Origin: a virus
Length of the DNA stretch: 27,528 nucleotides
Virus record (IMG/VR): IMGVR_UViG_3300021519_000054
Location: 1-27,528 of that record
Strand: one strand, 5' to 3'
A program made the translations under genes and the position numbers. Positions 6,781 through 26,493 of this stretch are shown here, piece after piece. Position 1 is the stretch's first letter. Each line of letters opens with the position of its first letter. The notes under the pieces were generated by a model. The model saw only the letters and a program-made list of their open reading frames with translations. It was not told the DNA's origin and did not search any database.

Positions 6781-7241
6781 AAGTAATCGAACTCACAAAG
6801 GGGGCAGTTGCCATTGTTGACGACGAAGATTTTGAGCGTCTCGCGCAATTCAGGTGGTACTGTGATCACATGGGATATGCGCGAAGAAATGTAAAATCTA
6901 CACCCGGAAAGCAGCGCGCCATCCTCATGCACAGAGAGATCATTGCGAATGGGTCAGATAAACATGTGGATCACATAAATAGAAACCCTCTGGATAATCG
7001 GCGATGCAATTTACGACTGGCGACCGCCTCTGAAAACATGGCGAACAGAGCAATGCACTCAAACAACAAGGCAGGGAAAAAAGGCGTGAGCTTTGATAAG
7101 TTCAGAAGGAAATGGCGCGCCCAAATCAAGAAAAACGGGAAAGTTAAAAATTTGGGCAGATTCGAGACTGTTGAGGCCGCTCATGCCGCCTACGTCTCTG
7201 CCGCTACATTGATGCACGGCGAATTCGCCAGATTTAACTGA
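6777..7241 (+). CDS. HNH endonuclease with C-terminal AP2-like DNA-binding domain
   Basis: 154 residues. About 40-85 is the HNH_3 core: HREIIANGSDKHVDHINRNP with LDNRRCNLRLATASENMANR, giving the His, Asn and His ligands. About 98-150 resembles an AP2-type DNA-binding domain (GVSFDKFRRKWRAQIKKNGK, LGRFETVEAAHAAYVSAA). This pairing is typical of free-standing homing endonucleases. The ATG overlaps the portal stop, with no separate promoter seen. Base composition is more AT-rich than its neighbours, fitting recent insertion between portal and capsid genes. Confidence 0.92.
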   Translation: MKVIELTKGAVAIVDDEDFERLAQFRWYCDHMGYARRNVKSTPGKQRAILMHREIIANGSDKHVDHINRNPLDNRRCNLRLATASENMANRAMHSNNKAGKKGVSFDKFRRKWRAQIKKNGKVKNLGRFETVEAAHAAYVSAATLMHGEFARFN

Positions 7242-9986: not shown

Positions 9987-10369
9987 GTGAACGAAATTCA
10001 CGAACTCTGCTGGAAATGCGAAAGGCCGAAGATTCCGCTTAGGACTGCAATAAGAAGGACTGTGTCGCCATCTGGAAAAATCTACGTAACACGAGAGTGC
10101 AAGGACTGCGAAAGCGGAAAGCAGCAGATGGTGCGCATGAGAAAGGTTTTTGGGATCACGGATTTTACGCGCCGGAATATGCCGATTCTTTTCCATACAA
10201 GGCGTGGGGAAAAGTTTTGGACAAATGCGAATACCGCTGCGCGATTTGTGGAGAGCAAAAGCCGATGACAATTGACCATATTGTTCCAATGTCCAAGGGC
10301 GGAAGTCTTGAGATAGAGAACCTGCAACCGCTTTGTCGAAGCTGCAATTCGCGCAAATCGAACCGATGA
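9987..10369 (+). pseudogene. HNH endonuclease split by a -1 frameshift
   Basis: The first frame (GTG at 9987) encodes an N-terminal zinc-ribbon-like part with CWKC and CKDC. It then runs into unlikely sequence and stops at 10268. The HNH core lies in the -1 frame: CAIC, then MTIDHIVPMSKGGS, NLQPLC and CRSCNSRKSNR, ending at 10369. Joining the frames near the five-T run at 10147-10151 gives a normal HNH layout (two CxxC pairs before the HNH core) of about 127 residues. No canonical slippery heptamer is present, so an indel, either natural decay or a sequencing error, is more likely than programmed shifting. The stop overlaps the next ATG (ATGA), so the gene was recently intact. Confidence 0.7.
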
Positions 10370-10497: not shown

Positions 10498-10691
10498 ACG
10501 TCGAAAATATGAAGTGCGCGGATTGTCGGTTCTGGAAACCCTTCAGTTCTTGCGGACAGTGCCGCAGGTGGTCCCCGAAAAGCAGCGTCGGCAGCAGTGG
10601 GCAGAGTCAGCCTGTGTGGCCGCTCACTGAAGGCAATGACTGGTGCGGAGAATTCCAGCACAAAGCCAATTTCACAGAGGTCAAACCATGA
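10494..10691 (+). CDS. Small cysteine-rich (zinc-binding-like) protein
   Basis: 65 residues. MKCADCRFWKPFSSCGQCRR contains two CxxC pairs spaced as in a small zinc ribbon, followed by a conserved-looking tail with Trp and a late Cys (WPLTEGNDWCGEF). Short phage proteins of this pattern are common, with no established role. It sits in an unbroken chain of ATGA overlaps with the genes before and after it. Confidence 0.75.
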   Translation: MNVENMKCADCRFWKPFSSCGQCRRWSPKSSVGSSGQSQPVWPLTEGNDWCGEFQHKANFTEVKP

Positions 10692-12049
10692 CTGCCCGCA
10701 CCCTAAACATCGAACTCCTCACCCGCGCGCAGGACTTGCAGCGCGACAAGAAGTGGGCCGAAGCGATCCCGCTCTGGCGCGAGCATCTGGAATTTGACCC
10801 GCAGGACGCCGCCGTGTGGTTCAATCTCGGCGCGGCATTGCAGGCGACAGCGGACTCGCCGGCAGACCGCTACGCAGCGGCAGAGTGCTACCAGAAAGTG
10901 CTGACATGCCCAGGCGTCGAGATGGACACAAAGGCACACGCCATGTCGAACCTCGGCGTGATGATGCTCAAGGTCGGGCACCACGCCAAGGCGACGATCT
11001 GCTTCAACCTCGCCACGCAGATTGACCCGACAAACGCCGCTGCCCGCGTGAACCTCGGCGACGCTTTGCGCTACGAGGGAAAATACGACGAGGCGGACGC
11101 GGAATTCGAGGCCGTGTTGAAGCTCGACCCGGAAAGCCACGGCGCGAAGTTCAGCAGCGGGATGATCAAGCTACTGCTTGGCGATCTCGCGGAAGGTTTC
11201 GCCGGCTACGAGAGCCGCTTCTTCGTGGAAAGTTTTCCGGCGAAGCGTTTCATCACGGATGTTCCAGTGTGGAGCGGCGAGGACTTGGACGGAAAGACGC
11301 TTCTTTTGACGCAAGATCAGGGGTTCGGTGATCAGCTTCAGTTCATCCGCTATGCTGCCGAGATCAAGCGCGAGTGGCCGACGTGCTGCATTATATTTCG
11401 CGGCGATGAACCGCTGCGCAACATCATGCTGTGCGCCGATGGGGTGGACGAATTCGTGAGCAACGCCAGCGAGACCGCCTACGATTACCACGTCGCGACT
11501 ATGAGCCTTCCGTTCCGTATGGGCACCACGCTCGCGTCAATACCAAGCGCGGTGCCGTATATCGGGACCGGCGGCGCTGGTATCATATCCGATGAGAAGC
11601 TTGAGTCGGGATCATTTAATGTCGCGCTGGTTTGGGCTGGCTCGCCTCGGCACGGTCGCGACGAGTTCAGGAGCTTTGCGCCAGAGTTATTCCAGCCTCT
11701 CGTGGACGCGCACCCTGAATGCTCTTTTTACTCGCTCCAGTGCGGCCCGCGCGCCGATGAGGCAGCCAAGCTGCGTAACGTGACGGATCTCGCGCCACTT
11801 ATAAGCGACTGGACTCACACCGCGCAGGCGCTCCAGCAACTCGACCTGCTCATCACCGTGGACACCGCCGTTGCTCACTTGGCCGGCGCGCTTGGCTGCA
11901 ACGTCTGGATGCTGACACCGCACTCGCCGGACTGGCGGTGGCTGCTCGGGCGCGACACGTCGCCGTGGTATCCTTCCATGCGCCTGTTTCGTCAGGAGCG
12001 CGAAGGCGACTGGCAGAGCGTCATTAAACGAATCAGCGAAGCACTATGA
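10688..12049 (+). CDS. TPR protein with glycosyltransferase family 9-like domain
   Basis: 453 residues. About 10-175 are tetratricopeptide repeats (WAEAIPLWREHLEFDPQDAA, ATICFNLATQIDPTNAAARV, DEADAEFEAVLKLDPES). The C-terminal half carries a GT9/heptosyltransferase-like fold: LLLTQDQGFGDQLQFIRYA, YDYHVATMSLPFRMGT, ALVWAGSPRH, LDLLITVDTAVAHLAGALG and the closing DWRWLLGRDTSPWYP. Such proteins transfer sugars or use the sugar-binding fold in polysaccharide pathways. The ATG at 10688 overlaps the previous stop and has GAGG 7 nt ahead; an earlier in-frame start (10643) lies within the previous gene. It opens a run of coupled transferase genes. The target, a virion protein or host surface polymer, cannot be told. 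Confidence 0.88.
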   Translation: MTARTLNIELLTRAQDLQRDKKWAEAIPLWREHLEFDPQDAAVWFNLGAALQATADSPADRYAAAECYQKVLTCPGVEMDTKAHAMSNLGVMMLKVGHHAKATICFNLATQIDPTNAAARVNLGDALRYEGKYDEADAEFEAVLKLDPESHGAKFSSGMIKLLLGDLAEGFAGYESRFFVESFPAKRFITDVPVWSGEDLDGKTLLLTQDQGFGDQLQFIRYAAEIKREWPTCCIIFRGDEPLRNIMLCADGVDEFVSNASETAYDYHVATMSLPFRMGTTLASIPSAVPYIGTGGAGIISDEKLESGSFNVALVWAGSPRHGRDEFRSFAPELFQPLVDAHPECSFYSLQCGPRADEAAKLRNVTDLAPLISDWTHTAQALQQLDLLITVDTAVAHLAGALGCNVWMLTPHSPDWRWLLGRDTSPWYPSMRLFRQEREGDWQSVIKRISEAL

Positions 12050-12843
12050 ACAAGAACGGACTCGACACATACGAAAGCGACGCCAAAAAGCAGTCGCGCA
12101 GAATCATCGCGGAGGAATTATTCCGCAGAGTGAAACACCCGGCATTCTCGACGGTACTTTATTTGCCGGGTCCGCACGACTATCAGCGCAAGTCGCTTCT
12201 GAATATCGGATTCAAAAACGAAAACATCTTCGGCGTAGACTTGGGCGCAAACGTGCAAGCCGTGCGCGACCGTGGCGGGTATTGCATTGAGGGAAAGCTG
12301 CACGAAGTGATTGATAACTGGCCGACACATCGATGCATTGATGTAATCCTCGCCGACCTCTGCTGCGGATTGGGCGGCACTGCGCTGGAAACCGTAAGAG
12401 CAATCGGTTGTCTTTACGAAAAGCAAAAGTGCGCGCCGATTGTTTATATGAATCTTCAACGAGGGAGGGATGCAGACACAAACGGAGTGAGGGAATTTCT
12501 CAAAGGCTTGCGGTCAGATAGCTACTCGAAACACCGGGTGCTTCAGCTAATAATGTGGCAATACTCAGAATTTGGGATTCATAACAAGGACGCGTTACAT
12601 CGCGCATTTGGAAATGACGGAGACGCGATTGCAAAACATGCTTGCGAGGAAATCGACATGATGAAAATCCGAATGTGGGATTACAAAAATGCAGCATCTT
12701 CCGTAGTGATGGACAGCATGATATTCCAGTGGCCAAGATGGTTAATTGGAGAAAAAAGAGACGCGGCAAAAGTTACGACACAACGCATCGCCGCCACGCT
12801 CGCAACCGCAACCCGCCGCCGCAACGAAAGGATCGCAGCATGA
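12046..12843 (+). CDS. Rossmann-like protein, possibly methyltransferase-related
   Basis: 265 residues, unrecognised at family level. Residues about 35-110 read like a nucleotide or SAM-binding fold: STVLYLPGPHD (first strand and loop), NIFGVDLGANVQAVRDRGG (second strand with acidic end), CIDVILADLCCGLGG (fourth strand). The classical GxGxG is replaced by PGP, so cofactor binding is uncertain. The remainder has a helical middle and a basic Ala/Arg/Thr-rich end. The DNA is more AT-rich than its neighbours. It is joined by ATGA to the TPR-glycosyltransferase before it and to a true methyltransferase after it. Confidence 0.6.
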   Translation: MNKNGLDTYESDAKKQSRRIIAEELFRRVKHPAFSTVLYLPGPHDYQRKSLLNIGFKNENIFGVDLGANVQAVRDRGGYCIEGKLHEVIDNWPTHRCIDVILADLCCGLGGTALETVRAIGCLYEKQKCAPIVYMNLQRGRDADTNGVREFLKGLRSDSYSKHRVLQLIMWQYSEFGIHNKDALHRAFGNDGDAIAKHACEEIDMMKIRMWDYKNAASSVVMDSMIFQWPRWLIGEKRDAAKVTTQRIAATLATATRRRNERIAA

Positions 12844-13433
12844 CCCGCCTCGAATCCTTCATGGCCGCACGCGCGGCGGAGACTTATCCCGAGCCAGTCA
12901 CCGCACAGCACTCTGAAATCACGAGCATGATGGCACCGCTTGTCGCTGCGATGCTTCCGGCAGGCGCGAGCGTGCTTGACGTGGGCTGCGGGCAAGGGCC
13001 GGCGCTGGAATGGTTCAAGGCGCACGGATTTAAGGCACTTGGTATAAGCTCCAACGCAAAGGAAACGGCAGAGCTTAACGACCGCGGCTTTCACGTTCTT
13101 TTGCGAGACATGCACGAAATGCTTTTACCAGCAACCTGCTACGATTGCGTGTGGGCGCGGCACGTCCTAGAGCATTCCGTGATTCCCTTTTTCGTGCTGT
13201 ACGAATTTGCGCGCGTGCTGAAACCGGGCGGCATCCTATACGTGGAAGTTCCAATGCCTGACACGCCATGCAACCATGTCGCAAATCTGAACCATTACAG
13301 CGTTCTCGGTAAGGACGCATGGCTATGTCTTATCGCCCGCTCAGGCTTTGAGCTTCACGAAGTCCGCGAGATTGGCCTGCAAACTATGGCAGGACCGGAC
13401 AAATATCTGAGCGTGATCGCTCGCAAGCTATGA
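12840..13433 (+). CDS. Class I SAM-dependent methyltransferase
   Basis: 197 residues. Motif I VLDVGCGQGPALEWF (about residues 42-56), the second strand ALGISSN, the acidic-motif region RDMHEMLLPATCYDCVWARH, and LEHSVIPFFVLYEFARVLKP followed by GGILYVEVP are diagnostic of the Methyltransf_11/23 group. It probably acts on a small molecule or sugar. The ATG at 12840 is preferred over an earlier in-frame start inside the previous gene: it overlaps the stop (ATGA) and has AAAGGA about 9 nt ahead. The stop overlaps the next glycosyltransferase start. Confidence 0.92.
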   Translation: MTRLESFMAARAAETYPEPVTAQHSEITSMMAPLVAAMLPAGASVLDVGCGQGPALEWFKAHGFKALGISSNAKETAELNDRGFHVLLRDMHEMLLPATCYDCVWARHVLEHSVIPFFVLYEFARVLKPGGILYVEVPMPDTPCNHVANLNHYSVLGKDAWLCLIARSGFELHEVREIGLQTMAGPDKYLSVIARKL

Positions 13434-14425
13434 AAACCATGCACTTCGCAGGCTCTCCCGGCACCGGCTACGGATGGGGCGTGTTTAACGCCAACATGTA
13501 TCGCGAACTCGACAAGCACTTCGTCATGGTGACATCGAACCACGACCCGGTTGACGTGTGCTTTATGCCGGTTGACGGCGCATTCCGACCGCTCACGCCA
13601 GCGCGAGGGAAGGTCAACGTGTGCATGAACTTTTTCGAGTCGCCGCTGGAACCGGACGCGCGAGAGAACGCCGCGCAATTCGACGTGTGTTTCGTCGGCT
13701 CGACATGGTGCCAGCAGCGATGCGCAGAGGCGGGCATCCTCAATACGCGCGTGCTCATCCAAGGCGTTGACGGCGACATCTTCAAGCCGCAGCCGCCGCG
13801 CGGACCGGACGGCACGATCCGCATTTTCAGCGGCGGCAAATTCGAGTATCGTAAAGGGCAGGACTTGGTGATCGCAGCCTTCCGCGAGTTCGTGAAGGTG
13901 CATCCCGAGGCGCACCTTGTCTGCGCGTGGCATAACCCGTGGCCTCAACTCATGTTAGCAGCCGTTTGCGATAAGCGATGCGCGCTCAATCCAAAGGCGA
14001 GCGGGCAAACTCAGGAGGAATATCTCGAATCACTTCTCGTCATCAACGGTATCCCGCGCGAGTCATTCACCATCCTCCCGCAACTCAGCCAACACGACCT
14101 CGCGCGCGAGATGGCGAACACGGATTTCGGACTGTTCCCGAATCGGTGCGAGGGCGGAACGAACCTCGTCCTGATGGAATACGCGGCACTAGGCCGCGAG
14201 ATTGTCGCAAACGTGCTGACCGGCCACGCCGACGTTGAAAACGCAATCTCGATGCCGATTGAAGCGACCGAAGACGAGAATCATTGGGCGCTTCAACCCG
14301 TCGCCAACATCACCGACGCGATGAGGGACGCAGCGGATTACCCCCGGAGCGATTTCACCGGATGCTCATGGACATGGGAGGACGCGGCGAAAACGGTGCT
14401 CTCGGAGATTGACAATCTCTCCTGA
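13430..14425 (+). CDS. Glycosyltransferase, GT4-like
   Basis: 331 residues. The N-terminal part has the loop GSPGTGYGWGVFNANMYREL, where such enzymes often begin, and a middle strand FDVCFVGSTWCQQ. The C-terminal nucleotide-sugar half shows IRIFSGGKFEYRKGQDLVI, the strand SFTILPQLSQHDLAREMANT, and the acidic motif FPNRCEGGTNLVLMEYAALG. The last corresponds to the conserved glutamate pair of GT4 enzymes. It is the fourth gene of the ATGA-coupled transferase cassette and is followed by neck genes 20 nt later, so the cassette ends here. Confidence 0.9.
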   Translation: MKTMHFAGSPGTGYGWGVFNANMYRELDKHFVMVTSNHDPVDVCFMPVDGAFRPLTPARGKVNVCMNFFESPLEPDARENAAQFDVCFVGSTWCQQRCAEAGILNTRVLIQGVDGDIFKPQPPRGPDGTIRIFSGGKFEYRKGQDLVIAAFREFVKVHPEAHLVCAWHNPWPQLMLAAVCDKRCALNPKASGQTQEEYLESLLVINGIPRESFTILPQLSQHDLAREMANTDFGLFPNRCEGGTNLVLMEYAALGREIVANVLTGHADVENAISMPIEATEDENHWALQPVANITDAMRDAADYPRSDFTGCSWTWEDAAKTVLSEIDNLS

Positions 14426-18222: not shown

Positions 18223-18464
18223 GGCAATCGGTATGGTTTAGCCGATTGTCTCGCGCAGCAAGCGCAACTGGACATACTGTAACATGGATTGATAACAATA
18301 TGGACACCGTTTTAGTGAACGGGTATGAAGCTCTGTGGTACATGGACAGCATCCACTCCGATGAGGTTTCAGCGGGATACGCAGTACCAAGAGCATTCGG
18401 CGCGACGGTGCCGCATCGAATAGTTTCCGGTATTTGCGGTGGACAAGAACAGGAATTGGTTTGA
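17692..18464 (+). CDS. Tail assembly chaperone GT, made by -1 frameshift
   Basis: A fusion of 174 G residues (to the AAC codon at 18211-18213) with 83 residues from the -1 frame (18213-18464), about 257 in all. The extension begins RSLRQSVWFSRL and includes HTVTWIDNNMDTVLVNG and GYEALWYMDSIHSDEV; it has no in-frame ATG near its beginning and opens only at 18204, exactly where G ends. An ATG at 18300 could in principle make a 54-residue protein alone, but the frameshift signal explains the frame better. The TTGACG promoter of the next HNH gene overlaps its stop. Confidence 0.75.
18207..18250 (+). promoter_or_regulatory. Programmed -1 ribosomal frameshift site
   Basis: The heptamer GGGAAAC (18207-18213) is in the correct phase (G GGA AAC; codons TCG, GGA, AAC). 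A 9-nt spacer contains the G stop. A hairpin then follows: GGCAATCGG (18223-18231) with CCGATTGTC (18242-18250), nine pairs including one G-U, loop of 10. Phase, heptamer, spacing and stem all match known -1 sites, and lambda uses GGGAAAG for the same gene pair. Confidence 0.85.
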
Positions 18465-18550
18465 CGATTCACTGAGTTAAGCGTAAAAAAGACAAGCCAT
18501 CGCGGAGTTCGTTGCTCCGAAATGGCTCTAACGCCAAGCACACATACATT
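18461..18550 (+). promoter_or_regulatory. Promoter and hairpin leader of the first HNH gene (copy 1)
   Basis: TTGACG (18461-18466), 17 nt, TAAAAA (18484-18489). Transcription would begin near 18496, at the base of a stem-loop: GCCAT (18496-18500) with ATGGC (18522-18526), an internal loop CG/AA, then CGGAG (18503-18507) with CTCCG (18515-18519), loop of 7. GGCTCTAA (18524-18531) and AGCACAC-A-TACATT (18537-18550) then lead to the ATG. No Shine-Dalgarno is seen. The unit aligns without gaps to 25864-25953, about 54 of 90 bases identical by hand count. Confidence 0.75.
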
Positions 18551-19165
18551 ATGCCGAACGCTTCAAACCCAATCGCGGAACTCACAGAAAAAGACAAGGA
18601 AAGATTCTGGAAACGAGTCGAAAAAAGAGGTCCAGACGAATGTTGGCTATGGCGCGGGCTTCTGACTAGAGGCGGATACGGAAGCATCAGGATAGGTCGA
18701 AAAATGGTCACTACGCACAGGGTTAGTTACTTCATTTCATTCGGACAAATCACAAATGGGCTTCACGCTCTGCACAAATGCGACGTTCGCAACTGCGTGA
18801 ATCCGGCGCACATTTTTCTAGGGACGAATCTCGAAAACATGATTGACCGTGAGGCGAAGGGGCGAAACAAACCGCAGCGCGGAGACAAGAATGGTGCGCG
18901 ACTTTATCCCGAACGACTCATGCGCGGAGACGGACATTGGGCGCGCACAAATCCAGAAAAAGTGAAACGAGGAATCCACCAATACGCGGCAAAACTGTCA
19001 GATGAAAAGGTGCGTGAAGCGAGGGCGAGACACGCAGCCGGAGGCGTGACATTCACTGACCTTGGAAAAGAATATGGAGTTTCAAACGTGGCGATCACGA
19101 ATGCGATCAGAGGAAAGACGTGGGCATCCATTCCTCTGCTTGCGCCCGTGTCCGAGCTGGGGTAA
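18551..19165 (+). CDS. HNH homing endonuclease (copy 1) with C-terminal HTH
   Basis: 204 residues. An N-terminal segment LTEKDKERFWKRVEKRG and the W(L)W pair introduce the domain. The HNH_3 core spans about 60-105: THRVSYFISFG, LHALHKCDVRNCVNPAHIFL, GTNLENMIDREAKGR, with His-Cys-Cys-His and the Asn. A C-terminal helix-turn-helix (LGKEYGVSNVAITNAIRGKT) is expected to contact DNA. It shares this order, start codon and upstream leader with 25954-26493. The DNA is more AT-rich than the tail genes. It begins 86 nt after the GT stop and ends 9 nt before the next tail gene, a clean insertion between genes. Confidence 0.9.
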   Translation: MPNASNPIAELTEKDKERFWKRVEKRGPDECWLWRGLLTRGGYGSIRIGRKMVTTHRVSYFISFGQITNGLHALHKCDVRNCVNPAHIFLGTNLENMIDREAKGRNKPQRGDKNGARLYPERLMRGDGHWARTNPEKVKRGIHQYAAKLSDEKVREARARHAAGGVTFTDLGKEYGVSNVAITNAIRGKTWASIPLLAPVSELG

Positions 19166-19174
19166 TAGTCTTGC

Positions 19175-19885
19175 ATGGCTGGCCAACTTTCACTCGATAC
19201 AAAGGGGTTCGCCGCGACTCTGAAAACGTACATGCAGCTCACACGGAAAGACATTTCCGAAGTGTTAAATTCGCGTGCTGGAGATGTCGCGTATCGGGCG
19301 GAGAAGTTCCAGCCGCGTGCGGACGCTGGAAAGATGGATGCGCTGTTGAAAGTTGGAGGGAAGAACTCGCCGGGCACTCTCAAAAGCGGCAAGCAAAGCA
19401 AAAACAAGCGCAACCAGACATTTCAGGCATCCGACTACGTGTATGCAGTGATCCGATTCTATCTCAAATACGGTAAAATGCCGCCGTTCGCTTACGGAGT
19501 GATGCCGAAAAAGCTGGCAGGCTTGCGTGGTAAGATTTCCGACTTGCAGCTTAACGCCGCCGCGAAACAGTATGTGAACGCCAAGAAATCCTCCATCGCC
19601 TACATCGCGGTTGGCTGGCTCATGGTGGCGCGATTCTTCGGCAAACAGGTCAGCATCGCGAAACTCAGCGCGAAGGGATGGGCATACCACTCGGACGGCA
19701 TCAAGGCGACGCCGCAGAATCTCACTGCCACGCTTCGGAACTTCTCGCGCGGTGCAGACAAGGCACCGGGATCGTTGCAGGCATTGGATTCAGCGATGCG
19801 TTCCGTAGTGTCCGACATGCAGGACCACATCGCGAAAAAGATGACGGAGCGTGCCGTAAAAATGGCACTGGCAGGCAAGCCGTAA
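19175..19885 (+). CDS. Tail completion-like minor tail protein
   Basis: 236 residues. The opening SLDTKGFAATLKTYMQLTRK and EVLNSRAGDVAYRAEKF resemble phage tail-completion or HK97 gp10-type proteins that begin with a helical segment. A basic linker (residues about 65-85), a strand-rich middle (SIAYIAVGWLMVARFFGKQ) and a C-terminal helix follow. It sits between the tail chaperones and the tape measure, an ordinary place for such a gene now separated by insertions on both sides. No catalytic motif is seen. Confidence 0.6.
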   Translation: MAGQLSLDTKGFAATLKTYMQLTRKDISEVLNSRAGDVAYRAEKFQPRADAGKMDALLKVGGKNSPGTLKSGKQSKNKRNQTFQASDYVYAVIRFYLKYGKMPPFAYGVMPKKLAGLRGKISDLQLNAAAKQYVNAKKSSIAYIAVGWLMVARFFGKQVSIAKLSAKGWAYHSDGIKATPQNLTATLRNFSRGADKAPGSLQALDSAMRSVVSDMQDHIAKKMTERAVKMALAGKP

Positions 19886-19930
19886 AAGATTCCGATTGAC
19901 GGAACGATTATTTACGGCATGGTGCGGTGA

Positions 19931-20206
19931 ATGAAAATCCTCAAACAGCTTCTCGGATGGAAACGCGGCATGGCCCGCAAAGGCGCAATCTCGGCACTCG
20001 CGCGCAAGATGGGAGTGCGGTTCAGCACCGTGAAAAATTGGGCACTCGGAAGCCCGATGAAGCTCGCCACGCAGGACTACATCGAGCGACTGCACGCATC
20101 CGGCGAACCGCTGGCGATGGCAAAGCTCGGCAGGCCATTCGGGACGAAAAAGAAAGTTTGCGAAAAAGTGAAAGATTGTTTGACAGCGCAGCAGGCACAG
20201 GCATAG
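19931..20206 (+). CDS. Small helix-turn-helix protein
   Basis: 91 residues. The segment SALARKMGVRFSTVKNWALG is a clear helix-turn-helix signature; LGRPFGTKKK and a basic tail follow. It may bind DNA as a regulator, or act as a partner of the ligase encoded 9 nt downstream (20215). Both genes lie between tail genes, where neither is expected. Start ATG at 19931 has no clear Shine-Dalgarno; a TTGACG 35 nt upstream lacks a plausible -10. Confidence 0.7.
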   Translation: MKILKQLLGWKRGMARKGAISALARKMGVRFSTVKNWALGSPMKLATQDYIERLHASGEPLAMAKLGRPFGTKKKVCEKVKDCLTAQQAQA

Positions 20207-20214
20207 TGACGGCC

Positions 20215-20922
20215 ATGAATCCTGAACTTGTACTGCAACAACCTTGTGACTACGAATGCGCGTTCACGACGCCAGACCCGCTTTTCGAGAGCGACGAGTA
20301 CTGCGCCCAAACCAAACTCGACGGCGTAAAGCTCATCATCTTTTCCGAGAACGGCGACCTCCGCGGTGAGTCACGCAGCGGTCGCGGCATGAAGCTCTCC
20401 GCAAAGACTCGCGCATTCATGCCGACGCACGGCACTTTCGTCGTGGAGGGAGAGCAAGGCGACAAGTCCACAGGCGACACCGGCTTTCAGGCGTTCGACG
20501 TGATCTCCGAAAACGGTGAGGACGTTCGGCATCTTTGCTACGCCGACCGGCTCGCCATCCTCGCGACGCTCGGCGTGCCCGTCATCCGCACGGTGTACGG
20601 TGCCGCGGCGAAGCGACGGCTGCACGTCGAGGTGTTTGCAAATGGCGGCGAGGGAATTGTGATGAAGCGCCTTGATGCCGTGTATCGGCCTGGCAAGACA
20701 TCGGCGCAACTCAAGATCAAAAATTGGAAGTCCGATACCTTTCGGGTGACGCATGTTGACGGGATGGGGGTTGAGCTTTCGACGATGGCAGGCGTTCCTT
20801 GCGGACGTTGCGCTGGATACGCCAACGCAGGGGCGCTCGTGGAAGTCCGATTTCAGGAAGTGACTGAGGCTGGAAAGCTGCGTTGCCCGACGATCATCGG
20901 CACACGGGAGGATTTGGAGTAG
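20215..20922 (+). CDS. Compact ATP-dependent DNA (polynucleotide) ligase
   Basis: 235 residues. Ligases join nicks using a lysine-AMP intermediate. Visible nucleotidyltransferase motifs are: motif I KLDGVKLI with Lys34; an arginine-rich RGESRSGRGMKL after it; motif III near GTFVVEGEQ; motif IIIa-like AFDVI; motif IV GGEGIVMKRL (about 144-153); motif V QLKIKNWKS with paired lysines (about 165-173). About 60 C-terminal residues (VTHVDGMGVELSTMAG onward, with CGRC) look like a small OB domain. The length is near that of the minimal phage/viral ligases. It lies in the tail region, away from any visible replication module, and is encoded just behind the HTH protein. ATG at 20215 is chosen because the earlier in-frame sequence overlaps that gene. 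Confidence 0.88.
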   Translation: MNPELVLQQPCDYECAFTTPDPLFESDEYCAQTKLDGVKLIIFSENGDLRGESRSGRGMKLSAKTRAFMPTHGTFVVEGEQGDKSTGDTGFQAFDVISENGEDVRHLCYADRLAILATLGVPVIRTVYGAAAKRRLHVEVFANGGEGIVMKRLDAVYRPGKTSAQLKIKNWKSDTFRVTHVDGMGVELSTMAGVPCGRCAGYANAGALVEVRFQEVTEAGKLRCPTIIGTREDLE

Positions 20923-21003
20923 CACAAGGCTTGCCACGGGCGCGCAAGCGTGTAAAGTGCGCGGCAATGATCGCGCAAATTCACGACTCGAAGGAGGTTG
21001 ACC

Positions 21004-23214
21004 GTGCCTAACGGCGGGCCGCAGCTCACGGCCCGGCTTTCGCTAGATCCGAGCCAATTTGAGTCGAATCTAAAGAAGTCTCTGAGTTCGGCGAAAAGCG
21101 CATCGGCGGCGCTTGGCAAAATCGCGTTTAAGATTCCGTTGGCCGGAATTCACGCAGCGCAGAAAGCACTCAAAGGCTTCGCCGCTACGCTCGCCAGCAT
21201 CGGCAAGGGCGGATTGAGCGGCCTCGGCGCATCGGCGCTTATGGGAGGCTGGCAGGGCATCGGCGGCGCGATTGCCAGCGTCGGCACGAAGATGGTGACA
21301 GGCACGCAGGACGCCTACGAATACGGGCGCGCGATGATGAACCTGTCCCGCGCGACAGGCATTTCCAAGGACAAGATCGCTGTGATGAGCCTCGCAATGG
21401 AGGATTCGCAGATTCAGGCGAACGAAACCATCATGGCGATCAAGATGATGGATCAGCTTTTCCTGAAGGCTGCTCACGGTGTCCATTCGGCGAGCACGGC
21501 CTTCGCGCAGCTTGGGCTGAACTGGAAGGAGATCATGCACTTGGAGCCTGCGGAGGCATTCGAGAAGGTCGGCGCGGCACTTGCAGCCGTGGAGAACCCG
21601 GCCCTGCGTTCAGCAGGAGCCATCACGATCTTCGGACGAACCGGCGCGAAGATGCTCAAGCTGTTTGAGCGCGGCGGGGCGCTGCAACTGGCCAGGGAAG
21701 CACTCGGATCGCAGGCTGGTATCGTGGCGAAAGATGGCGCGGCATTTGAACAGGTGGCGATTCGGCTCTCACACGTCGGCGTTAAGATCCGCGGCATCTT
21801 CATGGGGATTGCCAAAACGATCCTCCCGACCGTGGACAAATTTGTGAAGAAGTTTCACGCAATGGACTTCACTGAATGGGGCGAAAAGATTGGCAACGCG
21901 CTCAACAACGCGATGTCTTGGTTGGTGACATTCTGGAAAGAACCGGGGAAGACGATGGATGTTTGGTGGGCATACGCTCAGTTGAAGGCGCGAGAACTTG
22001 GCAACTTCTTTCTTGATATGATCGAACGCGCATTTCCGGGAATGGGTGACGCCATCATGGATGCCATCCTGATCACGAAGGCATGGGGCAAGATCATCCT
22101 TGGCACGGCGATTGACTTTGGAGGGGCATTGCTGAACGCTGGAAAAGCGTTCATTGATTACATCAAGACGAATTGGGATGCGTTAGGAATTGATGACTTG
22201 ATATTGTTCATCAAGCACTCAGTATTAAAAGTCGGGCATGGCGAACTTTCTCCAGAGGAACGGGGAGCACTCATGCTTGGGCCTGAGGAAGATTTAGGTT
22301 TTGTGCCAAGCGGCTGGGATAACAAACCAAACTTTCCGGGCGCAGGTGAAAGAAACGATGATCGTGAAAGAGACAGGAGGCTTGCTAGAGAGATCGCAAG
22401 AATAGACAAGCCTCAAAAGGATCAGGAAGATTTGGTGAAAACGCTGGCTCTTTTAGGAATCGGAGCATCAACAGGTTCAACTGATGGAATTGCCACATTG
22501 TTCTCTGCTTTTAACCCAGGAAAAGGAATCTCCCGCGCATTGGCAGGGAAGCCGCAAGGACTGGCAGAAGAAGGATGGGCCGAACTCGAAGAAGCAAAGA
22601 ACAGGACTAGGGGAAAAAAGGATCGCTTCGGCGCATACGAAGCCGGGCAGCAGCTCGCAAAAGCCGAACGCGCGATCATGCCGACTTATATGGCATCGCG
22701 GATGTTCCTTGCCATCGCACCACTGCTCGACAAGGCGCAGGAGGCATGGCTTCACCAGACCCGGAATGCCGGGGACAAGGTTGGGGATCTTTCCAGACAC
22801 ATCATCAATATGGAAAGAGGCACAGGGATTCAAGGAGCCTCGTTGATCGGTGCTCCTTGGCACGACCTAGGAGGATTTCGCGGCCACGGAATCAACCCCG
22901 AGGCCACTCACGGCGCTGGCCTGTTGAGTCACCGCGAGCTGGCCCGCTTCCGCAACAGCGCCATCGCTGCCCGCTCAGGTCGCATCCTCGCAGCCGGCGG
23001 AGATCCGTCCAAGCTCGGCAGGGGTGAGATGTTTGACCCCGACACCATGCGGCGTCCCGGCGAGACGGCCAACGGCGACCGTCGCCGAGCCAAGGCGTTT
23101 GCCAAGGAGGTCGCGCGCCGCGAGGCTGGCGAGGGAACGGACAACCAGCTTCTCGGAGACATCTCACGCAACACGGAAAAGAGCGCAAAAATAATGACGG
23201 AGGCATTCCAGTAA
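21004..23214 (+). CDS. Tape measure protein
   Basis: 736 residues from the GTG at 21004, chosen because AAGGAGG at 20991-20997 is 6 nt upstream; the TTG at 20998 would abut the ribosome site. The protein sets tail length; at roughly 0.15 nm per residue (known for the family) the tail would be about 110 nm. The N-terminus is a helical segment (SQFESNLKKSLSSAKSASAA), followed by glycine/alanine-rich hydrophobic stretches (ASALMGGWQGIGGAIASVG), a large helical centre, and a charged C-terminus ending in the helix LLGDISRNTEKSAKIM. A stretch from about 22160 to 22620 is AT-richer, with different codon use. Confidence 0.88.
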   Translation: MPNGGPQLTARLSLDPSQFESNLKKSLSSAKSASAALGKIAFKIPLAGIHAAQKALKGFAATLASIGKGGLSGLGASALMGGWQGIGGAIASVGTKMVTGTQDAYEYGRAMMNLSRATGISKDKIAVMSLAMEDSQIQANETIMAIKMMDQLFLKAAHGVHSASTAFAQLGLNWKEIMHLEPAEAFEKVGAALAAVENPALRSAGAITIFGRTGAKMLKLFERGGALQLAREALGSQAGIVAKDGAAFEQVAIRLSHVGVKIRGIFMGIAKTILPTVDKFVKKFHAMDFTEWGEKIGNALNNAMSWLVTFWKEPGKTMDVWWAYAQLKARELGNFFLDMIERAFPGMGDAIMDAILITKAWGKIILGTAIDFGGALLNAGKAFIDYIKTNWDALGIDDLILFIKHSVLKVGHGELSPEERGALMLGPEEDLGFVPSGWDNKPNFPGAGERNDDRERDRRLAREIARIDKPQKDQEDLVKTLALLGIGASTGSTDGIATLFSAFNPGKGISRALAGKPQGLAEEGWAELEEAKNRTRGKKDRFGAYEAGQQLAKAERAIMPTYMASRMFLAIAPLLDKAQEAWLHQTRNAGDKVGDLSRHIINMERGTGIQGASLIGAPWHDLGGFRGHGINPEATHGAGLLSHRELARFRNSAIAARSGRILAAGGDPSKLGRGEMFDPDTMRRPGETANGDRRRAKAFAKEVARREAGEGTDNQLLGDISRNTEKSAKIMTEAFQ

Positions 23215-23218
23215 TTCA

Positions 23219-23941
23219 ATGGCGCTTAACATTCATTACATTGGAAACTCCGCATGGCGGCAGAACAAGCCGCCTGCGTGGAGCAAGAGCTTCGCGGGCG
23301 AGATGGACACTTGCACGCTTCAATGGCAGGGCGCGCAGTATCTTGAGAAGGCGTTTCTCGACTCGCTCACAGCATACCAGGCGCTCGTATATCTGAACGA
23401 GGCGGGCGTCACTGTCACTGACACAGCGATGCGGCTGATCAAGGCCAGCAGCGACGACAACCCGATTTGGCCGACTGTGACCCTGAGCTTCGACGGGTTC
23501 CGCAACGGAGCCGTGTCGGATGCGGTGGCTACCGATGGCAGGACTTCGCAGAGCGCGTCCACAACACACACGATCACGGATGATTCATCGGTGAACTACG
23601 GCAAGGCGATCACGATGAGCATCCAGTATTACGCGAATCGCACGGCGTACGAATGGACGCAACTCAGCAACCCATCAGGTACGCCGACATACGGCACGGT
23701 GCGAAACCCGCTCAGCTACTCAGGGCCATACGGCGACCCGAACATCTTTTACAGGAAGTTCAGCGGACAGGTTGATGATGACGGACAGCCAGCCTCGCAG
23801 ATCCCGATTGGTGACGCGACGGCGGTGTGGAACACCTTCAGCGGCACCACTCAGATTTCAGACTTCACATCCAAGGAGCTTGTCCCCGGCTACGTGTGGC
23901 AGTGCAGTGCCACGGCGGAATTTCTCCTCGTCGGTTCTTAA
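23219..23941 (+). CDS. Distal tail or tip protein (hypothetical)
   Basis: 240 residues, 4 nt after the tape measure stop. It is beta-rich: HYIGNSAWRQNKPPAW, DTCTLQWQGAQYLE, YVWQCSATAEFLLVGS as final strand. The region after the tape measure normally encodes the tail tip, and the size fits a distal tail or tip-collar part. No specific family can be assigned. Composition matches the surrounding tail genes. Confidence 0.7.
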   Translation: MALNIHYIGNSAWRQNKPPAWSKSFAGEMDTCTLQWQGAQYLEKAFLDSLTAYQALVYLNEAGVTVTDTAMRLIKASSDDNPIWPTVTLSFDGFRNGAVSDAVATDGRTSQSASTTHTITDDSSVNYGKAITMSIQYYANRTAYEWTQLSNPSGTPTYGTVRNPLSYSGPYGDPNIFYRKFSGQVDDDGQPASQIPIGDATAVWNTFSGTTQISDFTSKELVPGYVWQCSATAEFLLVGS

Positions 23942-23944
23942 GCC

Positions 23945-24928
23945 ATGCCGCTACCGTCCGATCCTCCAATCCCGAAATTCAAATGGCCTGCGAAATGGTG
24001 GCAGTGGCTCATGGACTTGTATCTATGGATGCGCTCGACTCAGGCAATCCCGGACCCGGCAGATTTCGCCGTGTCGGAAAAGCCGAACGGCAGATATTTT
24101 TCGCTGCGACCGCAAGCCCCGAAAGCCCCGCCAGCCATTCCAGACCCGCGCGACTACCGGGAGTTTCACATCCTGTCCGCAGGGTTCAAGCGTGTGGTGG
24201 TGTACAACGGCACCCTTTTCGGCGAACTGCCGACCGGGTTCTCGACGGAAGACAACCCGATTTTTGAGCTGACCGGCCTTTCTGATGCCGATGAAATCTA
24301 CGCCGCGGTGACGTGGGACAGGAGGGTAAAGGCAGACGGGACAAGCGCCATCACTACCCGCACGATTAAAAGCGCGGCATTTACTCCAGAGAATGACGTG
24401 CTTAACGGGCTTTTTTACTATCGGTTAGGATACGTCCGCATGGCGGAAGATAATATCCCGGTCGTCCATCAGGAACTTTGGGGGCCGATTGACGATCTGC
24501 CGGGCACTGCGACAAATCCTTATCTCATGCCGCCGTCGCCGGGGACGCAAACCACCGCGCAAACAGACTATTGGAATTTAACTGAGACGGGAAAGGGCAA
24601 GGACACAGGAGCGGCAAATCTCGCGCCAACTTACGACTCAGTGACGTTGAACAAATCGGGCTTTGTTCGGTTCGTAAATGACGATGGGAACCTGAAGGCG
24701 TTTCTTCGTGCTGTGACGATCAATTCCCTCGGCGCAATAACAATCGCGCCCGCCGAGACTCTTGCGTTTGAGCATGTGCAGATTGACGTGCTTGTGGGTT
24801 TACGGCTTTATGGCGGGGAGTTGCAGGGGCAATATAAGAAGGTATGGGTGATGGATGATGAAGCAAGCTCTCCCGAATGGGTGGATTTGATCACCACGAC
24901 CGCCAGCGTGCCAGATACATGCCCCTAA
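23945..24928 (+). CDS. Tail tip protein (hypothetical)
   Basis: 327 residues. The N-terminus is Pro/Trp-rich (FKWPAKWWQWLMDLYLWMRS), unusual for a soluble protein, followed by proline-rich linkers and beta-rich segments (YRLGYVRMAEDNIPVVHQEL) and a C-terminal strand region. It follows the previous gene by 3 nt. Position suggests a tail tip or adhesion platform component; no motif for catalysis or binding is visible. The tryptophan cluster could form an attachment patch. Confidence 0.6.
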   Translation: MPLPSDPPIPKFKWPAKWWQWLMDLYLWMRSTQAIPDPADFAVSEKPNGRYFSLRPQAPKAPPAIPDPRDYREFHILSAGFKRVVVYNGTLFGELPTGFSTEDNPIFELTGLSDADEIYAAVTWDRRVKADGTSAITTRTIKSAAFTPENDVLNGLFYYRLGYVRMAEDNIPVVHQELWGPIDDLPGTATNPYLMPPSPGTQTTAQTDYWNLTETGKGKDTGAANLAPTYDSVTLNKSGFVRFVNDDGNLKAFLRAVTINSLGAITIAPAETLAFEHVQIDVLVGLRLYGGELQGQYKKVWVMDDEASSPEWVDLITTTASVPDTCP

Positions 24929-24931
24929 GCA

Positions 24932-25498
24932 ATGGCTGAGAAACTTCTAACAAACTGCGCGGCATCCACGCTGCTAACAAACTGCGCAGGGAATTCCCTG
25001 CTGATTAGTTGCCCCGGCTGCTGCGTTTGCGGCCCGGGGATCACGCTTCCGATTTATACGTACATCACCGGGGGTTACACAGGAACGGGATGCGGCTATC
25101 GGCTGTCAAACGGTGGGCCAGTTGCCGTTCCTCCGTGGTCAAGTGGATGCACGCCCGTCTATCAGACAGGCAAAGACATCACTGCGACAGTAGCCGGGCC
25201 GGGCTTTTCGCAGACCTTCGACGCACCTGCCTTTATAGGCTTGCCTACATGCAGTGAAAATTACAGTTCCATTGAAGTGCAGTGTGTGGACGATTGCGGA
25301 ATGCTGGTGTATGCCGGTCATGCACAGCTTGACTTTCGTGGCCCGCCATCTGTCCCGCAAGCAGCGGGGCCGGGTGCGACATTGACTGTCACATACGATG
25401 ATTGTGTGGCATGGCTGGCTGCGTGGTTGGCTGGCGCAGCATTCCCAAATCCTGACCCGCCGTGGTGCGGGAACCCAATGGGCTGCACTCCTTGCTGA
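24932..25498 (+). CDS. Cysteine-rich tail protein with 9-residue repeats
   Basis: 188 residues with about 15 cysteines. The N-terminus carries three 9-residue repeats of the form LLTNCAxxT (LLTNCAAST, LLTNCAGNS, LLISCPGCC). The rest is Gly/Pro/Cys-rich (CGPGITLPIYTYITGGYTG) with paired cysteines near the end (GCTPC). Such density suggests disulfide bridges or metal binding, as for proteins exposed outside the virion, but no family is recognised. The stop TGA overlaps the next ATG (TGATG). Confidence 0.65.
   Translation: MAEKLLTNCAASTLLTNCAGNSLLISCPGCCVCGPGITLPIYTYITGGYTGTGCGYRLSNGGPVAVPPWSSGCTPVYQTGKDITATVAGPGFSQTFDAPAFIGLPTCSENYSSIEVQCVDDCGMLVYAGHAQLDFRGPPSVPQAAGPGATLTVTYDDCVAWLAAWLAGAAFPNPDPPWCGNPMGCTPC
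24944..25015 (+). repeat. 27-nt tandem repeats coding LLTNCAxx
   Basis: CTAACAAACTGCGC at 24947-24960 recurs exactly at 24974-24987, 27 nt apart, and a third, diverged unit (CTGATTAGTTGCCCC) starts 27 nt later at 25001. They encode the start of the cysteine-rich protein, so repeat number might vary by slippage. Confidence 0.8.
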
Positions 25499-25758
25499 TG
25501 AACAGTGAACTTCCAAGTGGTGCGGCTAAAGCCGCCAGCTTCATAGCTGCTGCCGCAAAAGCTGCGATGGGTGTCCTTTCAACCGGGAAGCTGATTGCTG
25601 CGCCGGATGTTCGCGCGGAGCGGATGGCGGTTTGCGAAGCCTGCCCAAGTTTCCTAGCGTCAGAGGACATCCTTGGCCCACAGTGTTCAGTCTGCGGATG
25701 CTTCCTTAAAGCAAAGACCGCCCTCATTACGCAAAGTTGCCCTGATGGAAAATGGTGA
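25498..25758 (+). CDS. Small zinc-ribbon-like tail-region protein
   Basis: 86 residues from the ATG at 25498, overlapping the previous stop. About 1-45 is an Ala-rich helix (SGAAKAASFIAAAAKAAMG). The C-terminal half is a four-cysteine site: CEACPSF then CSVCGC and ITQSCPDGKW, a pattern seen in short phage zinc-ribbon proteins near tail genes. Role unknown. The 105 nt that follow (25759-25863) contain a short hairpin GCGTG/CACGC (25845-25858) and no gene. Confidence 0.75.
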   Translation: MNSELPSGAAKAASFIAAAAKAAMGVLSTGKLIAAPDVRAERMAVCEACPSFLASEDILGPQCSVCGCFLKAKTALITQSCPDGKW

Positions 25759-25863
25759 CGAGCTATCAAGAGGATTGACATCGAGCCGTGATCAACCCGT
25801 AGTGATTCCGCCCTCCCCCGCGACGGCTGGCACCACAATTCAGTGCGTGTAATCACGCCGCGC

Positions 25864-25953
25864 TTGACGCACTCCCGAAAATCCGCTACAAAAGACGAAC
25901 CGCCGCGATGTATTCAGCACCGCGACGGCTCTAAACATCAGCACACTTACATT
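25864..25953 (+). promoter_or_regulatory. Promoter and hairpin leader of the second HNH gene (copy 2)
   Basis: TTGACG (25864-25869), 17 nt, TACAAA (25887-25892), at the same distance (90 nt) from its ATG as copy 1. Its stem uses the same positions: CC-G/C-GG in the outer arm and CG-T/A-G in the inner arm, with the 7-nt loop kept. Two base pairs differ by compensatory changes relative to copy 1. GGCTCTAA (25927-25934) and AGCACACTTACATT (25940-25953) are conserved. Confidence 0.75.
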
Positions 25954-26493
25954 ATGCCGACGCCTACACAAACAATCCCCACCCTCACGGAAAAAGACAA
26001 GTCTCGATTTTGGGGCAAAGTTGAGAAGCTAGGAAACGAAAGCGGTTGCTGGCTGTGGGCCGGATATTCTGATTCCGCAGGGTATGGGAATTTTCAACTG
26101 CTAAAACTGCCAAGGAAGGCGCATCGCGTTGCGTTCGTTTTAAGCGGGCGCAAACTCATGGAAGGAATGTGCGTGTTGCATAAATGCGACACGCCTGGAT
26201 GCGTGAACCCGGCACATCTTCGCGCAGGAACGCATCGCGAAAATTCCAAGGACATGGTTTCAAAAGGGAGGCAGGCACGCGGCGAAACTCACATGAGCAG
26301 GACAAAGCCAGAGGCGTTGCTTCGCGGGGTCAAAAATCCGAGGGCAATTCTTGACGATGCTGCGGTTCACAAAATCCGAGCGCGTTTCGCAAAAGGAGAG
26401 GCGATTTCTGTCTTGCGTGAAGAAATCGGGGTGTCGCACGGGTGCATCAGCAGCATCGTTCATGGCCGGAGTTGGAAGCACCTTGTCGCTTGA
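25954..26493 (+). CDS. HNH homing endonuclease (copy 2) with C-terminal HTH
   Basis: 179 residues. Same order as 18551-19165: LTEKDKSRFWGKVEKLG, WLWAGYSD, then the HNH core (KAHRVAFVLSG, VLHKCDTPGCVNPAHLRAGT, HRENSKDMVSKGR) and a final helix-turn-helix (LREEIGVSHGCISSIVHGRS). It is shorter in the spacer between the two parts. It carries its own promoter and leader at 25864-25953, follows the zinc-ribbon gene, and stands before the tail fibre gene with a 31-nt gap. Homing to nearby conserved tail DNA is the usual behaviour of such genes; the target is unknown. Confidence 0.9.
   Translation: MPTPTQTIPTLTEKDKSRFWGKVEKLGNESGCWLWAGYSDSAGYGNFQLLKLPRKAHRVAFVLSGRKLMEGMCVLHKCDTPGCVNPAHLRAGTHRENSKDMVSKGRQARGETHMSRTKPEALLRGVKNPRAILDDAAVHKIRARFAKGEAISVLREEIGVSHGCISSIVHGRSWKHLVA

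Follow-up and report, generated by a model that had tools for sequence, protein, structure and literature searches.

How a free-standing homing endonuclease comes to be expressed wherever its gene lands is an old question. It is raised by two HNH genes of an uncultured phage (IMG/VR virus record IMGVR_UViG_3300021519_000054; the 27,528 nt analysed are called the window hereafter) that carry the same leader organization.

18551 to 19165, plus strand: HNH gene 1, 204 aa, HNH_3 (PF13392), from a domain match.
25954 to 26493, plus strand: HNH gene 2, 179 aa, HNH_3, from a domain match; 39% identical to gene 1.
18461 to 18489, plus strand: promoter-like pair of copy 1, TTGACG-N17-TAAAAA, read from the sequence; equal spacing in copy 2.
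18494 to 18528, plus strand: stem-loop P1 of copy 1, with 7 pairs (A.C at the foot), a 2x2 internal loop, 6 pairs and a 5-nt loop closed by U.G.
18529 to 18550, plus strand: leader tail of copy 1, TAACGCCAAGCACACATACATT, without Shine-Dalgarno sequence (SD), read from the sequence.
25864 to 25892, plus strand: promoter-like pair of copy 2, TTGACG-N17-TACAAA, read from the sequence.
25897 to 25931, plus strand: stem-loop P1 of copy 2, with three A.C mismatches, from fold and sequence.
25932 to 25953, plus strand: leader tail of copy 2, TAAACATCAGCACACTTACATT, read from the sequence.

The HNH_3 domain of both proteins scores above the cut-off (26.8 and 35.7 bits versus 24.8), and the only further match in either is a zinc loop below cut-off. 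An Rfam scan of the window, which gave no match at E up to 1, revealed no intron family. From the domain score and the absence of an intron family both are inferred, from sequence alone, to be free-standing HNH_3 endonucleases. Two further HNH genes of the window lack the leader unit.

A sequence-only reading had claimed that the 90-nt stretches immediately before the start codons at 18551 and 25954 can be aligned gap-free, with 54/90 positions identical, and this held; the top score among ~200,000 pairs of random 90-mers from the window was 44. The similarity has a sharp left boundary at TTGAC, farther-upstream blocks being at chance level (5-8 identities per 30). The elements listed in that reading (TTGACG-N17-TAAAAA/TACAAA, a stem-loop, GGCTCTAA and AGCACAC-N-TACATT-ATGCCGA) were all confirmed in the window copies. 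Each -10 box matches TATAAT at 4/6 positions, and the AGCACAC-N-TACATT-ATGCCGA pattern is found at only two sites of the window, both of them HNH leaders. The two compensated pairs that it described held in the aligned copies (46/56, A-U versus U-A; 39/63, A-U versus G-C). Its count of two mismatches in copy 2 was corrected to three A.C in a 13-bp model, in which copy 1 has one A.C at the stem base. The absence of an SD also held, but is usual in the window, where SD-like motifs occur at 4 of the 27 listed gene starts (a list typed by hand, two entries of which are not start codons). The window copies have neither an SD nor a second hairpin (P2), and the 3' end of P1 lies 22 nt before the ATG. 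When the 61-nt leaders were folded against shuffles the signal was clear for copy 1 (z -4.1, equalled by 0/200) and moderate for copy 2 (z -2.1, 5/200); it was weaker for the full 90 nt (z -2.45, 5/200, and z -1.22, 20/200, respectively).

Relatives of the window leader (class A) occur in other virus records. L003 and L004 keep the hairpin despite changes of stem sequence, L004 displaying the same fold with a largely different stem. Across the 4 sequences both sides changed in 6/13 pairs, amounting to 7 both-side-change cells versus 2.0 in shuffles. The related protein in L003 is 45% identical to gene 2 and has no HNH_3 match, only a zinc loop below cut-off. The class A model R2 detected two further copies in record G011, weakly (E 0.006 and 0.015), both preceding HNH_3 genes. 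Of 50 records scanned, R2 matched 4 at E <= 0.1, including both seed records; P1 of copy 1 and of copy 2 score 82 and 80 bits, yet both are themselves seed sequences. The class A set is limited to 4 well-aligned sequences and three looser ones from one record, with no empty site, and a search of named phages for the composite gave nothing beyond two 21-nt matches at E 6.

Several class A candidates were discarded. The R2 match L197 (E 0.09) has an unrelated ORF downstream; five pattern-scan matches in genome contigs, all without hairpin, and the L009 match, within a long open frame adjoining a portal-like gene, were judged to be chance. An upstream leader peptide was rejected: its frame is broken in L199 by a loop one base shorter (by eye), and on reading the G011 copies both this idea and that of an N-terminal extension were dropped.

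A sister leader class with more sequences available (class B) has a TATAAT-like box, an 11-bp hairpin with a bulged C, a UGGCACC-like linker, an SD and the start. Its cells are 97% paired and 10/11 pairs show both-side changes, in 51 cells, whereas shuffling left 12.4 and sliding no more than 8, with the caveat that the alignment was fitted to the model. The one-sided bulged C and the asymmetric linker recur while both arms vary. The sequence-only reading had made its hairpin depend on pairing support in a larger alignment; such support was found, compensatory change being present in both the class A and class B sets. As a separate observation, the pairing departures counted are mostly A.C and not G.U, which is odd for a sense RNA.

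A gene-blind pattern scan returned 51 stretches, 9 of which have 6-7/7 stem pairs and a 6-nt loop and represent 7 distinct hairpins; all 7 precede HNH-type genes. L160 (6/7 paired, 8-nt loop) was excluded as chance, and the family scan left out the genes downstream of the remaining 41 stretches, which have at most 5 pairs. The class B model R1 gave 26 matches, 20 at >=30 bits, in 50 whole records that had been chosen for an HNH gene or, for 4 of them, for the hairpin. Nucleases lie downstream of 19/20 strong matches, for L100 and L101 on tblastn evidence. Thirteen of the strong copies were retrieved otherwise than through their own gene, and HNH or GIY-YIG genes follow 12 of these. Six matches below 30 bits were kept outside the strong count: L182, L183 and L102 precede nucleases, and L113, L185 and L105 do not or look spurious (the gene downstream of L185 was not family-scanned). 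The 51-kb record G003 has three strong copies, each before an HNH gene.

The other elements of the layout recur as well. A TATAAT-like hexamer (>=5/6) starts ~17-36 nt before the stem in 17/23 class B leaders versus 15/874 controls, and the distance from the 5' foot of the stem to the start is 50-65 nt in 27 leaders, most commonly 55. A second hairpin P2 (>=5 bp), which often holds the SD, is found near the start in 17/31 leaders (of the 31, three have doubtful starts, L104, L175 and L217, and two are duplicates) versus 4.2% of 530 control ORFs. Some leader-bearing nucleases have HTH or AP2 matches, all under the Pfam cut-off. At ten other loci Rfam gave two matches (E 0.17 and 0.38), neither of them to HEARO. 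Anatomy, maintained pairing and, for class B, association with several nuclease families are thereby shown at the level of sequence. That the window copies belong to this kind of unit is inferred; a common origin of the two classes is possible but unproven, since sequence and fold detail differ.

The association is not exclusive in either direction. R1 marks the locus's own HNH gene in only 9/80 related HNH loci, and a class B leader is missing from six named-phage HNH genes (L114-L119) that were retrieved through their proteins. Named-phage cases found by the hairpin alone have other genes downstream in 3/6. Class B hairpins precede non-nuclease genes in L173, phage Richie (gp47, adjoining a divergent gene), virus Rctr16k and Acetobacter phage phiAP1, and a lower-scoring one precedes a replication gene in L074. 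HNH genes as a whole show no excess of upstream hairpins (mean z -0.29, n=29, versus -0.33 for 105 other genes; 50 HNH genes survived crude gene calling and 29 had a gap >=60 nt), and a loose stem scan was uninformative (20/80 loci versus 659/2364 control windows). The leader unit is not universal among HNH genes. Intrinsic terminators were rejected as an identity of the hairpins: in 27 leaders the 12 nt following a stem of fixed class B size contain no run of four T, and for the longer class A stem the sequence was read directly. The look-alike hairpin of phiAP1 does have a T-run.

Empty sites reveal what moves with the gene. In Arthrobacter phages RadFad, Phrank15 and BillyTP a block of ~0.58 kb, made of a ~102 nt leader and the HNH gene, is absent from BenchScraper, Richie, Faja and Anekin. 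With model R3 the hairpin is detected in 4 HNH-carrying phages and at none of the 4 empty sites. Leader and gene were inserted jointly in this phage group. IS200/IS605 or REP units bear hairpins at both ends; the RadFad block ends near the HNH stop, and inspection by eye alone showed no second hairpin there. A repeat search of its leader (minimum 8) gave no inverted repeat, and R3 had 0 matches at E up to 0.001 in 50 other records. The flanks of Pitbull match Hum25 and MrSmee without the HNH region, with a less clean edge as the gap includes gp26 too. A search for an empty site of Pan2 met no relative in the collection, and the remaining relatives of Anatole are too distant.

The initial proposal of a portable, covarying 5' element moving with nuclease genes is supported, because pairing is kept in a larger set, sister leaders precede several nuclease families and the Arthrobacter empty sites lack the leader. 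The three functions suggested with it (mRNA stability, translation control, nuclease binding) are undecided. In the model favoured here each HNH gene would bear a self-contained expression leader that belongs to the mobile gene. This leader would run from a sigma-70-type promoter through P1 and a short conserved linker to the start codon, ~55 nt past the 5' foot of the stem. P1 would begin a few nt after the predicted transcript start. The promoter is presumed to be used, in the absence of transcript ends and expression data. In the mRNA, P1 may form a structure at the 5' end that shields the transcript and insulates it, which would give the nuclease gene a set level of expression wherever it lands. 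In class B phages that use an SD, P2 would probably throttle translation by holding it. The mechanism is inferred, and the model as a whole is held to be slightly more likely than not. A bolder reading, as easily wrong as right, is that in unrelated phages free-standing mobile nuclease genes have as a constituent an undescribed family of structured-RNA leaders, common to HNH_3, classical HNH, NUMOD4-HNH and GIY-YIG nucleases, the promoter-plus-RNA cassette being itself a selfish module passed between them.

The alternative that survives best is a T4-like timing switch, a possible explanation in which RNA structure mainly restricts translation to keep the nuclease low or late, P1 aiding folding or isolation of the start region and P2 masking the SD. 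In its favour, structures masking the ribosome binding site (RBS) are reported for I-TevI, I-TevII, I-TevIII, segB and mobE (PMC2988022), and P2 is enriched beside class B starts. Against it, the T4 late promoter yields late transcripts without the structure, whereas here the box is upstream of the entire hairpin; the window copies lack SD and P2, and P1 excludes the start region.

It is unlikely that the inverted repeat serves as a DNA operator through which the nuclease, or a different dimeric repressor, would exert autorepression. The palindrome directly downstream of the promoter, the HTH or AP2 matches below cut-off, the lack of G.U preference among pairing departures and the repression by I-TevI of its own promoter (PMC2988022) speak for it. 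The recurrence of the class B bulged C and asymmetric linker while both arms vary, and their being common to nucleases of different families, speak against it. A general phage leader merely borrowed by nuclease genes, such as an early-operon leader, is likewise improbable. Put-like antitermination is an example of such leaders. The hairpins before Richie gp47, L173, Rctr16k and the L074 replication gene favour this reading; the 19/20 strong matches before nucleases, in records selected for HNH genes or the hairpin, and the three G003 copies count against it. Recent duplication with an incidental hairpin, suggested by the window's holding no more than two copies, the second partly degraded, is all but excluded, as proteins and third codon positions are each 39% identical, so that unconstrained DNA would have diverged, and as L004 retains the fold with a largely different stem; the wider set already contradicts this reading.

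HEARO, the IscB omega RNA, is a large RNA beside a mobile HNH gene and acts with the IscB protein. The window differs in having no Rfam match (E up to 1), and its proteins of 179 and 204 aa, with HNH_3 and a sub-cut-off zinc loop only, are unlike IscB with its split RuvC and HNH. The SAS/ESAS motifs of cluster K mycobacteriophages are repeated and start-linked, about half have imperfect inverted repeats, and their function is unknown (PMC3203893). They resemble the present leaders in being start-associated repeats with inverted repeats; unlike them, they are described for a gene subset of cluster K and are consensus-aligned, not stem-variable (PMC3203893). A similar architecture is that of the homing endonuclease gene seg43(25) from Aeromonas phage 25, in which a very stable predicted hairpin of undetermined role lies immediately 5' of the RBS without masking it (PMC2988022). 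Here too the start region of a mobile nuclease gene is left unmasked by a stable hairpin directly 5' of it, a likeness of architecture only, as sequences were not compared. Seg43(25) is however a single case, called segD-like, with no family or covariation described (PMC2988022).

Like the leaders of T4 I-TevI, I-TevII, I-TevIII and segB and of Aeh1 mobE (PMC2988022), the present ones place RNA structure ahead of mobile phage nuclease genes, class B P2 lying over or around the SD. They depart from this RBS-masking type in that the window P1 comes after the promoter and does not cover the start, although class B P2 fits in part. They also differ from the late transcripts without structure told for I-TevI, as the box precedes the entire hairpin both in the window copies and in 17/23 class B leaders, with transcript starts unmapped throughout. 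T4 segB, segE and mobB have promoters in their upstream non-coding DNA (PMC2988022) and are comparable in that a free-standing endonuclease gene adjoins its own promoter. Theirs are middle or late T4 promoters, and no leader RNA common to nuclease families is described (PMC2988022). If the model is true, such leaders would help to spot these genes, to correct their start sites and to source natural portable promoter-leader parts. In T4, seven free-standing endonuclease genes are promoter-less cassettes and others are served by a middle or late promoter lying either in the non-coding DNA upstream or within the gene before (PMC2988022); a promoter-plus-RNA leader inside the mobile block, accompanying nucleases of different families, would answer the same question in another way.

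The window record of 27.5 kb encodes terminase, portal and capsid proteins of a tailed phage. Two of its HNH_3 genes are each preceded by a leader with a main hairpin, P1, and two further HNH genes have no such leader:

18494-18528, plus strand: P1 of copy 1, the leader before the ATG at 18551
25897-25931, plus strand: P1 of copy 2, the leader before the ATG at 25954
6777-7241: HNH gene without leader (HNH_3 and a sub-cut-off AP2 match)
10097-10369: HNH gene without leader (classical HNH)

Frames resembling TPR, methyltransferase and glycosyltransferase proteins are also seen at 10643-14425, inside the structural gene region (by eye, without a family scan).

The 90 nt preceding the two ATGs are identical at 54 of 90 positions without a gap, as the sequence-only reading had claimed, while the best of ~200,000 random 90-mer pairs reaches 44. 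Identity drops to 5-8/30 to the left of the TTGAC box. The leader is conserved beyond expectation for unconstrained DNA, because the two HNH proteins are only 39% identical and their third codon positions likewise 39%. Two compensated stem pairs proposed by the same reading were both confirmed; its count of two mismatches in copy 2 was not, the 13-bp model having three A.C mismatches. Compared to shuffled sequences, the 61-nt leader folds well below expectation in copy 1 (z -4.1) and modestly so in copy 2 (z -2.1); the full 90 nt give z-scores of -2.45 and -1.22, respectively. The -10 boxes match TATAAT at 4/6 positions. A Shine-Dalgarno sequence (SD) is indeed not visible, as had been stated, but this is normal for a phage in which only 4 of 27 hand-listed gene starts have one. 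An Rfam search of the window gave no match.

The window's leaders form a sub-class, class A, to which belong L003, a locus from a pattern scan of virus contigs, and L004, obtained by protein search. The L003 apex retains GTGTATTCAGCAC; L004 keeps the apex and has a mostly different stem that yet still pairs. In the four sequences 92% of cells are paired and both sides change at 6/13 pairs, with 7 such cells against 2.0 in shuffled and 0-3 in slid controls. A covariance model made from the same four sequences finds the two known copies and nothing else in the window. In another virus record, G011, it detects two further sites (per-record E values 0.006 and 0.015), each directly 5' of an HNH_3 gene, and a third HNH gene there has a degenerate version of the leader. 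The G011 leaders have an SD, which those of the window lack. One other match (L197, E 0.09) lies upstream of an unrelated 244-aa ORF, and searching named phages with a class A composite gave just two 21-nt matches (E 6). The frames upstream of copy 1 (window 18453-18464) and of L003 (5660-5649, minus strand) differ, yet both end ...ELV-TGA, the TGA falling within the TTGAC box. It is possible that the inserted leader unit provides the stop codon of the upstream frame.

A tblastn search with an alignment of four HNH proteins yielded 80 virus loci, some of which have a leader unlike the window's in detail and similarly built. In this class B a TATAAT-like box is followed by a 7-bp stem, a bulged C on the 5' side, a 4-bp stem and a 6-7-nt loop, then by UGGCACC or UGACACC, an SD and the ATG. 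Kinship of the two classes is inferred. A model built from six class B leaders (R1) marks the locus's own HNH gene at 9/80 loci with at least 22.9 bits (L018, L021, L035, L040, L046, L047, L049, L050, L089). Across 50 whole records it gives 26 matches at E <=0.02, 20 of them of at least 30 bits, and a nuclease gene lies downstream in 19 of these 20 (called by tblastn for L100 and L101, by Pfam or PHROGs for the others). The exception, L173, lies before a 225-aa ORF that matches no family. Thirteen of the 20 were not fetched via their own gene (L096, L110, L171-L180, L184), and 12 of these have nucleases.

Nucleases behind strong class B leaders not fetched via their own gene
HNH_3: L096, L110, L174, L177, L178, L180 (L180 also NUMOD4)
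Classical HNH (PF01844): L171, L172
HNH by PHROGs: L175, L176, L184 (L184 a short 108-aa frame)
GIY-YIG: L179

One 51-kb record, G003, has three strong copies, each upstream of a different HNH gene. A class B-like hairpin of 24 bits is also found at L074 4007-4054, before a phage replication initiation gene (phrog_270).

Virus contigs were also scanned with the hairpin-linker pattern only, blind to genes. Among 51 stretches returned, nine have 6 or 7 of 7 lower-stem pairs and a 6-nt loop, and represent seven distinct hairpins; all seven precede HNH-type genes, three being on contigs already known from the 80-locus search. Named phages, searched by blastn with composite hairpins and with R1 and R3 (a further hairpin model), provide six distinct class B cases. 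HNH genes follow in Anatole (region nearly identical in B3 and E1), Pan2 and Pitbull; Richie gp47, Rctr16k and phiAP1 are non-nuclease cases. The association between hairpin and nuclease is strong but not exclusive, since it holds for 7/7 gene-blind hairpins and fails in 3/6 named-phage cases. Nor is it general: HNH genes overall show no excess of upstream hairpins (mean z -0.29 for 29 HNH genes, -0.33 for 105 others), and no class B leader was found at six named-phage HNH genes fetched by protein. Blastn rows for S-CBS1, Caulobacter, Streptomyces Joe and Endor2 were set aside as weak or intragenic.

Some named-phage annotations deserve mention. The annotated starts of Anatole gp02 (Propionibacterium phage, L188 505-1260; start 772) and Pan2 gp09 (Pseudanabaena phage, L187 1054-1788; start 1579) look truncated; reading frames of 251 and 244 aa, respectively, open shortly 3' of the leader hairpin. 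Persistence gp34 (Arthrobacter phage, L217 553-1056) has its annotated GTG within the leader, directly after the hairpin, and the ATG at 577 better matches the leader layout and relatives. In Acetobacter phage phiAP1 (L186 1001-1040) a near-identical P1-like hairpin is followed by a T-run, so the stem shape could perhaps serve as a terminator.

In the Arthrobacter phages RadFad, Phrank15 and BillyTP an HNH gene sits between an HTH and an integrase gene, while BenchScraper, Richie, Faja and Anekin have the same site without it. At locus L211 the DNA match ends at 754 and restarts at 1350 (1305 in Anekin). The inserted block therefore comprises ~102 nt of leader, in which the box and the hairpin lie, and the HNH gene (857-1336). 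In this phage group the leader thus lies inside the mobile block, which ends around the HNH stop codon; its right edge is blurred, since the convergent integrase gene ends differently from phage to phage. With R3 the hairpin is detected in RadFad, Phrank15, BillyTP and Persistence but not at the four empty sites (a single 15-bit Anekin match is situated elsewhere); the same model has no matches in 50 other records.

Class B pairing reaches 97% of cells, with both-side changes at 10/11 pairs (51 such cells, versus 12.4 after shuffling and 5-8 after sliding), counted on 24 distinct rows, one probably spurious, of an alignment that had been fitted to the model. A TATAAT-like hexamer (at least 5/6) begins ~17-36 nt 5' of the stem in 17/23 leaders and in 15/874 control windows. 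The 5' foot of the stem lies 50-65 nt from the start in 27 leaders, most commonly 55, and 56 in both window copies. A second hairpin, P2, of at least 5 bp adjoins the start in 17/31 leaders versus 4.2% of 530 control ORFs (at least 4 bp: 22/31 versus 15.3%), counting two duplicates and three leaders with a doubtful start. Its loop usually contains the SD; both window copies lack P2.

The departures from pairing that were counted comprise 13 A.C and one G.U on the coding strand, excluding the apical U.G that class A always has. This excess calls for explanation because G.U should be the better tolerated departure in a sense RNA; on the opposite strand the A.C departures in P1 (both window copies and the rows of alignment A8) would be G.U wobbles. 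A DNA-level constraint, a role of the opposite strand or small numbers are all possible. Of the 13 A.C, four sit at the foot of the stem. The arms of class A were entered by hand and only in part, and in Pan2, which is outside the count, one G.U was read.

The most economical reading, which we hold with moderate confidence, is a self-contained expression leader; promoter use and an RNA role are inferred. The proposed order is promoter, stem-loop near the predicted mRNA 5' end, linker and start, which would make expression independent of context for a gene landing at arbitrary sites. P2 could hold the nuclease level low in SD-using hosts. In bacteria, mRNAs can be stabilised by a stem-loop located right at their 5' end. 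No paper on such a leader family was found in the open-access literature searched (titles and abstract starts, for one result set only a small part of it; subscription journals were mostly outside). Promoters lie in the non-coding DNA upstream of several free-standing T4 endonuclease genes, and in reviewed T4 cases the RBS is masked by RNA structure; for I-TevI the late promoter is positioned such that this structure is missing from late transcripts (PMC2988022). The window leader is unlike these masking cases; its layout resembles that of seg43(25), whose stable hairpin does not mask the RBS and has an undetermined role (PMC2988022).
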